DNA from: Planctomycetaceae bacterium
GTDB lineage: Bacteria; Planctomycetota; Planctomycetia; Isosphaerales; Isosphaeraceae
Direction: 5' to 3'
Assembly: GCA_019232645.1 (NCBI GenBank)
Contig: JAFANO010000551.1
Coordinates: forward strand, 1 to 12,397
Length of the DNA stretch: 12,397 nt
Under the pieces are notes generated by a model, which saw nothing but the letters and a program-made list of their open reading frames with translations, made no database searches and had not been told where the DNA came from. A program made the translations under genes and the position numbers. Of the stretch, positions 5,909 through 11,435 are shown in pieces. Position 1 is the stretch's first letter. The number at the start of each line of letters is the position of its first letter.

Positions 5909-5975
5909 CCCGAGGGGCGTCCCGATCCTCCTCATCATCCGCCGCGCCTTGCCGATCACCAGACCATCGGGCTCT

Positions 5976-6069
5976 CAAATTTCAAATTTGAAATCTTGAA
6001 ATTTTAAATCTCAAATTTTTTAAATTTAAAATTTTGAAATTTGAAATCTTGAATTTGCGATTTCAAACC
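5976..6069. repeat. AT-rich palindromic intergenic repeat, copy 1
   Basis: A 94-bp stretch almost free of G and C inside GC-rich DNA, built from TTTGAAAT and ATTTCAAA units. A 17-base direct repeat, AAATTTGAAATCTTGAA, occurs at 5984-6000 and 6037-6053, and ATTTCAAATTTGAAAT at 5979-5994 is a perfect palindrome. It lies between the thuA-like stop and the upstream region of the peroxiredoxin-like gene. A related block occurs at 11378-11435. Confidence 0.8.
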
Positions 6070-8379: not shown

Positions 8380-8826
8380 CTACGCCCTCCCGAGAATCAG
8401 GCGAAGGGTCCAGGACACCAGGCTCAGCGCCACGGTGGCCACCACCAGGCCGATCAGGGGCCGGTCGAGCGACCGGAACCCGGGCGGCCGTCCCCGCGCC
8501 GCCCCCGCGAGCAGCCAAGGGATCAGCGCGACACACGTCAGGGCCAGCACGCTTCCGGCGGGATTGGCCCGCCACGAGCGATCGAACCGGCCCCGAGCGA
8601 ACCAGGCGAATGACGTCGTCATCCCGCAAGTCGGGCAGGGATGACCCGTCACCAAGGCGAACGCGCAGGGGGCCAGCCCGAGTTGCGTGTGCGTCCCGAA
8701 GCCCCGGGGGTCCGGCTCGAGCTGGCGGGCCACACCCAGGACTCCGACCAACCCCAGCGCCGCCAGGACCAGGGCGCGGCGGGTCGGCCATCCCAACGTC
8801 CTCTCGAATTCCTGACGCGAAGTCAT
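8380..8826 (-). CDS. DUF2752 family membrane protein
   Basis: 148 residues. DUF2752 proteins are small, uncharacterised membrane proteins marked by a Cys-x-x-Cys-Gly motif, seen here as HPCPTCGMTTSF (62-73). Hydrophobic segments at about 16-33, 90-110 and 122-145 are likely membrane helices, with the Cys motif between the first two. The ATG at 8826 lies at the edge of the PilZ relict on the other strand, leaving almost no spacer. The three-base gap to the downstream lipoprotein suggests the two act at the same membrane, but the function is unknown. Confidence 0.85.
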   Translation of the reverse strand: MTSRQEFERTLGWPTRRALVLAALGLVGVLGVARQLEPDPRGFGTHTQLGLAPCAFALVTGHPCPTCGMTTSFAWFARGRFDRSWRANPAGSVLALTCVALIPWLLAGAARGRPPGFRSLDRPLIGLVVATVALSLVSWTLRLILGRA

Positions 8827-9182
8827 GATGTGGCGATCATCAATCGAGGTGATCCCGGGACGGGTGGCGACACCTTACCCCGACACCCCGGACAAGACAA
8901 GGCCAGGCCACTCAGACTCCAAGTCCACTGCCCGAATGATCAACATCAGCGAGGGCGGTGCCCTGCTCGATGTCGAGAGCGCGCCGCCGCTGCATCAGGC
9001 CGACTGGTGCCGCCTGAAGGGGCCTGCGCCGACCGATTGGATCAAGGCGAGGGTCGTCCGGCATGGCGGATTCCGGCAGGTTACCCCTGGCGTTCCTGTC
9101 CTCGTGGCCGTTCGACTTCACCCTGGCGGCCACCCAGGGCATCAACTTCGACGCCCTCTATCACGACGCGGGATGGCGGTGA
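8825..9182 (+). pseudogene. PilZ-domain protein relict (frameshifted)
   Basis: Frame 2 encodes a PilZ-like segment with ARMINISEGGALLDVES, containing the NxSxxG core of the cyclic-di-GMP-binding fold, continuing to DWIKARVVRHGG (about 8927-9069). The expected C-terminal part then appears in frame 3: LPLAFLSSWPFDF and AATQGINFDALYHDAGWR, ending at TGA 9180-9182. It resembles the end of small PilZ proteins of planctomycetes. The frame change lies at about 9060-9090, so one base is missing or two are extra. The N-terminal PilZ Arg-rich motif is not evident, and the putative ATG overlaps the divergent DUF2752 start. The cause could be decay or a sequencing error. Confidence 0.6.
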
Positions 9183-9190
9183 GGAGGAGT

Positions 9191-9536
9191 GTCAGATACC
9201 CACCCCTCAAGGGTGTGGGCTTGCCAGTAGTCTCCGATGGCTTACGAGGTCCATCTTCCACGACTCCGACACGAGGCCGTCTGACGCGACATCCCTGCCT
9301 TTCGGCCCGGTCACAAGCGTCTCGACTGAGAGCTGTTGCTCCCGAGGGGAGTGCCTTGAGAGACTCGTGCTTTCGTAGAGGCCACGCTTTTCCGGAAGGG
9401 CCATTCCCCTTCCAACCCGGCATCCTCGTTGCCCAGCGTAGTTCCGATGACTCAACGGGACAGCGTTGTACAAGGATCTCGCCGAGGTCTCACGCGATTC
9501 CTCCCACCCCTGAAGGGGGTGGGCTTCCTCGCTAGT
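9191..9536 (-). ncRNA. HEARO / IscB-type omega RNA-like solo element
   Basis: An approximately 345-bp non-coding block lies between two near-identical hairpins: CCCACCCC...GGGGTGGG at 9503-9523 and CCCAC...GTGGG at 9199-9219, each followed on the plus strand by CTT. Such subterminal hairpins in one orientation are typical of IS200/IS605-superfamily ends. Read on the minus strand the order is hairpin, TGAGAC, GGAACT, GCAACGAGGATGCC, GTTGG, a GGAAGGG/CCCTTCC hairpin (9394-9413), and GGGCCGAAAGG near the 3' side. This resembles the conserved blocks of HEARO RNAs, the omega RNAs of IscB, as I recall them. No IscB or TnpB gene is present, so it would be non-autonomous. Exact ends are uncertain, and a tnpB 3' remnant is the alternative. 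Confidence 0.5.
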
Positions 9537-9581
9537 TTTTTGTGACCTCGGCGCACTGCGACCGGGAGGGTCACCGAGGTC
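9480..9581. repeat. Competing inverted repeats at the element edge
   Basis: GACCTCGGCG at 9544-9553 is perfectly complementary to CGCCGAGGTC at 9480-9489, enclosing the element's left-end hairpin. Its first eight bases can instead pair with CCGAGGTC at 9574-9581, around a nested GACC/GGTC stem. The two pairings exclude each other. One arm lies inside the omega RNA-like element and two lie in flanking DNA, just after the DUF374 gene stop on the minus strand. Confidence 0.55.
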
Positions 9582-9591
9582 GAGCCGCCGA

Positions 9592-10257
9592 TCAGAGCTG
9601 CTCGACCCAAGCCTCGGCTTCACGCATGGCCGCCTGCATCCGGCGTTCGACTTCCAGGCGGCATGCCTCGATCGTGTCGCGGTCGGCGTCGGGGGGGACG
9701 CTCACGGCCTCGGGCACGACGCAGGCCGCGGCGCGGAACGGCCGGGGCACGGCGAAGCGGTCCCAGCTCCTGGCCCGCCTGGGGCCTCGGAACGCCATCC
9801 CCGCGCCGACGATCGGCAGCCCGGTCCGGCTCGACAGGTAGGCCAGGCCCTGGTGGACGTGCCGCCGAGGCCCCTTGGGGCCGTCGGGGGTGACGCACAG
9901 GTGGCCCCGATCGACCCGCTGCGCCATCTCGCGCAACGCCCTGGCCCCGCCCCGGGTCGTCGAGCCCCGGACGACCCCGAAGCCCAGCCTCCGGACGACC
10001 TGCGTGATCAGTTCGCCGTCGCGGTGGTCGCTGATCAGGATTTGCATCTCGGGCCAGGCCCAGAAATACGCCGGGAAGAGCATCACCTCGTGGAAGAAGG
10101 CGTAAATGTAGCGTCGCCCGGTCCGCCGCGCCACTTCGGGGTTGACCATCGGGTCGGCGTATCGGAAGTGGAACCGGCACGTCCCCACGAGGCAACGGAC
10201 CATCCACGCCCCCGTGACGCCGACGGCGCGGACCAAGAGCGGGTGCTGGATCTTCAT
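9592..10257 (-). CDS. DUF374 lysophospholipid acyltransferase-family protein
   Basis: 221 residues, nearly all one LPLAT-type DUF374 domain. Visible motifs are FFHEVMLFP with the likely catalytic His56, ILISDHRDGELI (73-84), GSTTRGGARALREM (98-111) and the strongly conserved TPDGPKGPRR (123-132). Family members are membrane-associated acyltransferases related to PlsC and thought to act in lipid or lipid A-type synthesis; the acceptor is not predictable here. The N-terminal hydrophobic part (about 8-27) may be membrane-embedded. ATG 10257 has GGGAGG five bases upstream. The gene is divergent from efp, with 319 bases between the starts. Confidence 0.9.
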   Translation of the reverse strand: MKIQHPLLVRAVGVTGAWMVRCLVGTCRFHFRYADPMVNPEVARRTGRRYIYAFFHEVMLFPAYFWAWPEMQILISDHRDGELITQVVRRLGFGVVRGSTTRGGARALREMAQRVDRGHLCVTPDGPKGPRRHVHQGLAYLSSRTGLPIVGAGMAFRGPRRARSWDRFAVPRPFRAAACVVPEAVSVPPDADRDTIEACRLEVERRMQAAMREAEAWVEQL

Positions 10258-11140: not shown

Positions 11141-11377
11141 TACGACGCATTCCAGAGATTTTGTGTTCTCTGTCCGATGTGAAACTTCGGATTTCGAAAT
11201 CAGGAACATTTCGGATCGGCTCTTCCTGGGTTTCGGGGACCTAATATTCACCCTATGTCCGTCATAAATCTTTGAAATTGAAAAGGTTAAGCTGGAGGGC
11301 AAGGTTACTCGCTTCCTCCGCCACGAATCCGTGTCTATTGATAACTTAAGATAAATAGCGAGAGCACACGGATTATA

Positions 11378-11435
11378 GATTTCAGATTTGAAATTTCAAA
11401 TCTGAAATGTGAAATTTCAAATCTGAAATTTCAAA
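11378..11435. repeat. AT-rich palindromic intergenic repeat, copy 2
   Basis: A perfect 30-bp inverted repeat spans 11379-11408: ATTTCAGATTTGAAA is followed directly by its reverse complement. The 19-base unit GAAATTTCAAATCTGAAAT at 11390-11408 is repeated at 11411-11429, a 21-base period. It shares ATTTCAAA/TTTGAAAT units with the block at 5976-6069, so both probably belong to one dispersed family. Confidence 0.85.

Follow-up and report, generated by a model that had tools for sequence, protein, structure and literature searches.

Minus-strand positions 9191-9541 of the planctomycete sequence analyzed here (the window, 12,397 nt in full) hold a 351-bp mobile element with IS200/IS605-type ends and no nuclease gene. 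On balance we favor reading it as a non-autonomous, PATE-like element that has kept both transposition ends and a structurally intact minus-strand TnpB-type omega RNA, its tnpB having been lost or never carried, and whose RNA is used in trans. The anatomy of the element and of its RNA we put forward with high confidence. Since the element has no nuclease gene, its guide could work solely with a nuclease made elsewhere. The features are collected in Table 1.

Table 1. Features of the element and its flanks in the window, with the basis of each assignment.
Feature	Positions	Strand	Basis
Whole tnpB-less IS200/IS605-type element	9191-9541	minus	copies on contigs C685 and C753; ends by eye
Target/TAM-like tetranucleotide TCAC (GTGA on plus), adjoining left end	9542-9545	minus	by eye
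Left-end (LE) subterminal hairpin	9503-9526	minus	same-orientation repeat of RE hairpin
M1-like hairpin GGAAGGG..CCCTTCC, flanked by GTTGG and GGAAAA	9394-9413	minus	sequence; likeness to M1 by eye
M2 module AAGGCA-CTCCC..GGGAG-CAACAG	9333-9357	minus	sequence pattern
TnpB-type omega-RNA core	9191-9312	minus	covariation, pair listing, model R1 at 105.8 bits (window among R1's 10 training sequences)
Stem 1 (9308-9303 with 9279-9274); loop has GTCAGA, 9285-9280	9274-9308	minus	pair listing, covariation
Stem 2 (9271-9262 with 9232-9222) enclosing stem 3 (9255-9251 with 9240-9236)	9222-9271	minus	pair listing, covariation
Right-end (RE) hairpin, stem 4 of the omega RNA	9199-9222	minus	hairpin comparison, pair listing
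3' terminal TCTGAC, pseudoknot with stem-1 loop 9285-9280	9191-9196	minus	pair listing, covariation
Predicted guide, flank read downward from 9190	9171-9190	minus	TnpB geometry as given in the available portion of PMC10097598

A preliminary description of this DNA had noted a non-coding block of about 345 bp between near-identical, same-orientation hairpins. This arrangement was confirmed: the hairpins at the two ends are 24 nt each, like-oriented and 92% identical at a spacing of 304 bp, and the block has two copies elsewhere in the genome. Like-oriented subterminal hairpins are a hallmark of IS200/IS605 elements, and the window element displays them together with a recurrent target tetranucleotide. 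On the minus strand the element starts directly after TCAC (TCAC/AAAAAACTAGCGAGG, in short TCAC/A..GCGAGG, the slash marking the junction) and finishes with ..TGAC/; these bounds are the likely ones given the copies and relatives, with the ends read by eye.

The block was compared with the window's own genome (G000; an assembly 81% complete in 777 contigs), a check that had been proposed, and the near-full copies found there helped define the ends. The 18 matches, the window included, comprise a copy on contig C685 (87% over 328 nt, E 1.7e-109), another on C753 (84% over 279 nt, E 5.4e-80), and 15 others, 11 of which cover the end hairpins and 4 of which cover parts of the 3' core. An exact-pattern scan of a set of genome contigs to which the window's own genome possibly does not belong gave 0 matches. 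With the left end of a tnpB element (L026) in Singulisphaera sp. GP187 (G009), a member of the same family as the window's genome, the LE region shares 88% identity over 50 nt. Left ends of the other copies were likewise read by eye: TCAC adjoins the window element and six others (C753, C406, L031, L090 and the tnpB-bearing L057 and L037), CCAC adjoins three (C433, C665 and C366 of G006), and TTCAA two (L026 and L034). Five Y1-transposase loci in G000 exceed the Pfam cut-off; the single one tested further, on C159, also passes the IS200/IS605 equivalog cut-off, so a TnpA is present that could act in trans.

The surroundings of the element offered some observations of their own. A plus-strand gene at window positions 8825-9182, PilZ-like by eye, has an apparent frame change near 9070-9110; its reading stops at 9180-9182, leaving 8 nt between stop codon and element. 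At the LE hairpin and an associated T run, three overlapping terminator-like sites occur on the plus strand (9514-9533), against 0.4 expected from shuffles. The window is otherwise GC-rich, and AT-rich near-palindromic repeats of the AAATTTCAAATTTGAAA type stand at 11374-11434 and at about 5975-6060; the former palindrome accounts for six of the eight Rfam matches in the window (mir-737 and other miRNA families), and a comparable repeat lies within M1's hairpin in the C83 element (L092).

The 3' part of the element's minus strand (9312-9191) aligns with the 3' ends of tnpB genes at L035 (a 152-aa 3' part of tnpB in G016), L053 (G009) and L054 (G030), the homology taking in both the tnpB 3' end and the right end of the element. 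L053 encodes a full TnpB that scores above the NF040570 cut-off and has the catalytic motifs GVD, VED and AAD and a zinc ribbon; GP187 carries, besides this full tnpB element, the gene-less L031. In G016, the core shows 74% identity to C114 (L035), C164 and C193 over 87-93 query nt. Searching for relatives of the L053 TnpB turned up three loci, among which R1, our covariance model of the core, matches just the GP187 one. Open frames traverse the block on both strands, and the minus frame finishes in ..RRLLASPHP, similar to the tnpB C-terminus ..RPRLLASPAL of L035. Such a likeness is expected, since the omega RNA of a TnpB element and the tnpB 3' end overlap; "non-coding" remains true in substance. 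The finding that had been named as fatal to the preliminary reading, a block that is the coding 3' end of a tnpB, is half borne out: the last ~120 nt are homologous to a tnpB 3' end plus right end, yet this segment is itself the omega RNA.

A single structure, consisting of stem 1, the pseudoknot, stem 2, stem 3 and the RE hairpin, was named on an alignment of 10 sequences (alignment A2 leaves out the diverged tnpB loci L056-L059 and L004, which was too short). Pairing is found in 92.9% of 295 cells, and for 16 of the 30 pairs at least one sequence has both partners changed. The stem 1 helix is paired in 100% of the 10 sequences, with both-side changes at three of six pairs; for the pseudoknot, 95% of cells are paired and two of six pairs have changed on both sides. 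None of 500 shuffles, a control that destroys sequence relatedness, reached any of five measures. Sliding the structure by 1-3 columns reduced pairing to 32-47%, a control that leans toward the structure because this was partly derived from the same sequences. Taken by itself, the folding energy of the block stands out only slightly (z -1.99, with one shuffle in 100 reaching it).

All 30 tested pairs are kept in the window, 27 as Watson-Crick and 3 as G-U pairs. When the window is set against the C753 copy, 7 of the 30 pairs differ on both sides and still pair, while C753 has three broken pairs and one gap; recombination that swapped in the 3' module of C753, rather than compensatory point changes, could explain part of this difference. 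Non-pairing cells number eight in L054. The complete tally of 300 cells is 235 Watson-Crick, 39 G-U, 5 A-C, 16 other and 5 gaps. A G-U pair on one strand is an A-C mismatch on the other, and the excess of G-U over A-C cells therefore places the omega RNA on the minus strand.

This architecture is that of the ISDra2 TnpB omega RNA (reRNA), for which the available portion of PMC10097598 reports a cryo-EM structure: a stem 1 whose loop forms a pseudoknot with the last bases of the RNA, stems 2 and 3, and the RE hairpin. There, too, the 3' end of the RNA is the end of the element and the 3' flank supplies the guide. Since TnpB RNAs carry their guide 3', the guide of the window element would come from the flank below 9191, and not from beyond 9536 as had been proposed.

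In G000 the window element is one of many without a nuclease gene. Under strict filters and with 86 candidates scored per genome, R1, trained on 10 sequences, matched 28 loci spread over 4 of the 44 genomes (G000 14, G006 and G009 5 each, G016 4). In tblastn searches with nine TnpB proteins, six of the 28 loci had a tnpB, which at L074 was no more than a 33-aa stretch; the window locus had none in cis, and neither did any of the 14 G000 loci, nine of which have at least 500 nt upstream and five 53-256 nt before the contig ends. Searches of G000 found no intact tnpB, though they did find a partial tnpB-like frame on C184 and a below-cut-off fragment at the end of C154; because the assembly is incomplete and fragmented this is no proof of absence, and an intact tnpB may lie in its missing part.

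We also compared the region upstream of the core. A pattern termed M2 (AAGRCA - stem - CAMCAG) precedes the core at 8 of the 15 loci labeled solo (six in G000, two in G006). It was missing from all seven tnpB-bearing loci, all seven unclear ones and the one cut locus, and 9 of 3000 shuffles contained it; both the pattern and the locus labels had been set after the sequences were seen. The window element differs from the ISDra2 type in lacking tnpB in cis; its stem-1 loop is about 15 nt longer than in the tnpB-bearing relatives in A2, and its 5' region has the M2 pattern, which is absent from the seven tnpB-bearing relatives checked. A second subfamily (C433, C90, C675, C406 and C83 in G000, L090 in G009 and L076 in G006) has permuted M2-like pieces together with M1, a GGUUG hairpin within a stem. 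In six sequences from three genera, the 12 pairs of M1 hold in 70 of 72 cells, with both-side changes; trial stems for M2 and M3 pair poorly, leaving M1 alone well supported in that listing. Among 45 genomes, model R2, built on the 5' modules of six second-subfamily sequences, has 10 matches in G000, one each in G006 and G009, and nothing in the remaining 42. The window gives no R2 match at E up to 1, so the M1-like hairpin there is a resemblance only, and the 5' part at 9320-9440 folds no better than shuffles (z -0.27).

These modules allow a tentative proposal, which we think somewhat unlikely to hold as a whole: rather than simple deletion products, the gene-less elements would be a class of mobile elements consisting of RNA only, where additional conserved modules (M1, and M2 as an AAGRCA/CAMCAG internal loop whose order is permuted in another subfamily) took the place of the nuclease gene and are joined to a TnpB omega-RNA core. 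Such elements would have spread in the Isosphaeraceae as long guide RNAs exploiting TnpA and TnpB in trans, beside solo HEAROs exploiting IscB. In G000, the second gene-less subfamily at L005, L010 and L017 (C433, C90 and C675) has a right end, ..GGGAAACTTAA, that by eye resembles the right end of other G009 tnpB genes (L059), which suggests that gene-less offshoots in this genome stem from more than one TnpB lineage. L013 and L014 (C455 and C747) represent a third element type with like hairpins and an M1-like module (R2 match at C455, E 8.6e-05); they end in GTGTCA, outside the TGAC pseudoknot rule.

The preliminary description had read the block as a solo HEARO, the omega RNA of IscB. Part of that interpretation survives: the IS200/IS605-type character, the missing nuclease gene and the minus-strand guide RNA stand, and service in trans is plausible; the RNA family and the side of the guide do not. 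The minus-strand motifs on which it drew are all present in the order given, namely TGAGAC (9492-9487), GGAACT (9445-9440), GCAACGAGGATGCC (9432-9419), GTTGG (9416-9412), a 7-bp hairpin GGAAGGG/CCCTTCC (9413-9407/9400-9394) and GGGCCGAAAGG (9308-9298). The HEARO model (RF02033), however, found no match in the whole window at E up to 5 or in 9140-9600 alone at E up to 10, while the positive control L009 scored 136.9 bits with the same library; the core instead is homologous to tnpB 3' ends and has a TnpB omega-RNA fold. The resemblance that makes a HEARO conceivable is real. G000 has eight HEARO matches, three of them above the gathering score, at loci including L009 (1501-1729), L041 (998-1243), L043 (299-533), L044, L045, L046, L047 and L048; these occur in the same genome, are also nuclease-less and have similar terminal hairpins. 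They read the opposite way, the HEARO 5' end (GTCAgcgaCCC..GGGCTTG) resembling the reverse complement of the window 3' end. The likeness of the ends, which does not extend to the insides, may come from one TnpA serving both. At seven HEARO loci R1 also matches the reverse strand of the 5' end weakly (E 4.6e-4 to 0.027), which we ascribe to this common end hairpin. The likeness of the ends would demand a plus-strand RNA, and a HEARO-like RNA on that strand was suspected and ruled out by the G-U and A-C counts and the tnpB homology. HEARO differs, besides, in its fold and in a guide that lies 5' of the RNA. IscB gave 0 matches in G000, an 81% complete genome, and was present in 2 of 59 genomes (G006 and G009); a PF14239 search had no match in any genome, positive controls included. 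Taken together, we regard the HEARO reading as extremely improbable. As a side observation, the right ends of the seven G000 HEAROs in which they are readable adjoin ATG(A/G); in four of them (C236, C348, C415 and C328) the frame starting with this ATG has at least 240 codons and in three it has 31-48, and in the G006 HEARO (L042) the frame has 393 codons, so several HEAROs seem inserted right at start codons.

The main rival is a passive PATE or MITE moved by TnpA alone, in which the omega RNA would be baggage whose function is gone. Its appeal lies in the failure to find an intact tnpB in G000 or a promoter-like site in 9100-9700, in the broken pseudoknot pairs of some gene-less copies (one of six in L006, two of six in L008), and in precedent, some Haloquadratum PATEs being IS605-type elements that lost their core according to the available portion of PMC3119063. 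Mere baggage is harder to reconcile with the fully intact pairing of the window and the doubly changed pairs that still pair between copies, or with extra modules common to gene-less elements, the M1 pairing holding in three genera and the strict M2 pattern in two; we consider this explanation possible but doubtful. A structure kept without a nuclease gene, with extra conserved modules that suggest an added function, might instead be a guide RNA captured by the host. TldR is a nuclease-dead TnpB relative, and the captured RNA would direct such a TldR-like or another protein in gene regulation. The copies, however, are numerous, stand at unrelated sites and differ in the flank that would serve as guide, which looks like mobility rather than a fixed regulatory role, and searches for the TnpB and IscB families brought up no candidate effector; we consider host capture very improbable.

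If the element is, as we favor, a non-autonomous carrier of a usable omega RNA, an IS200-type TnpA encoded elsewhere would move it as single-stranded DNA, inserting it 3' of TCAC. A minus-strand transcript ending in the flank below 9191 would acquire that flank as its guide, and a TnpB from elsewhere in the cell or from a visiting element would take up the RNA. TnpB might then cut insertion-free alleles (TCAC plus guide), whose repair would copy the element back, making the element a guide-RNA-only parasite of the TnpA/TnpB system. For whole elements, the available portion of a preprint (PMC11870625) describes TnpB cutting sites that lack the element. The missing promoter-like site and the failure to find TnpB in G000 were counted against active use.

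Derivatives of IS605 elements without tnpB are already known: the available portion of PMC3119063 describes the PATEs of Haloquadratum, which, like the window element, are too short for a gene, multicopy, and have near-terminal palindromes and IS605-related ends. The present case differs in being bacterial and in its conserved omega RNA, guide RNAs being absent from that portion of the description. Among the matches listed in a search of open-licence PMC literature by titles and abstract starts, none was evidently on omega-RNA-only elements. Because G000 has many copies with different natural guides as well as solo HEAROs, the use of omega RNAs in trans is directly testable. TnpB is an ancestor of Cas12, and TnpB and IscB are thought to hold transposons in place by cutting empty sites. 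If guide-RNA-only elements are real, they would be parasites of this TnpB/IscB retention system, and they would show that guide and nuclease can be inherited apart, like crRNA and Cas12 in CRISPR.
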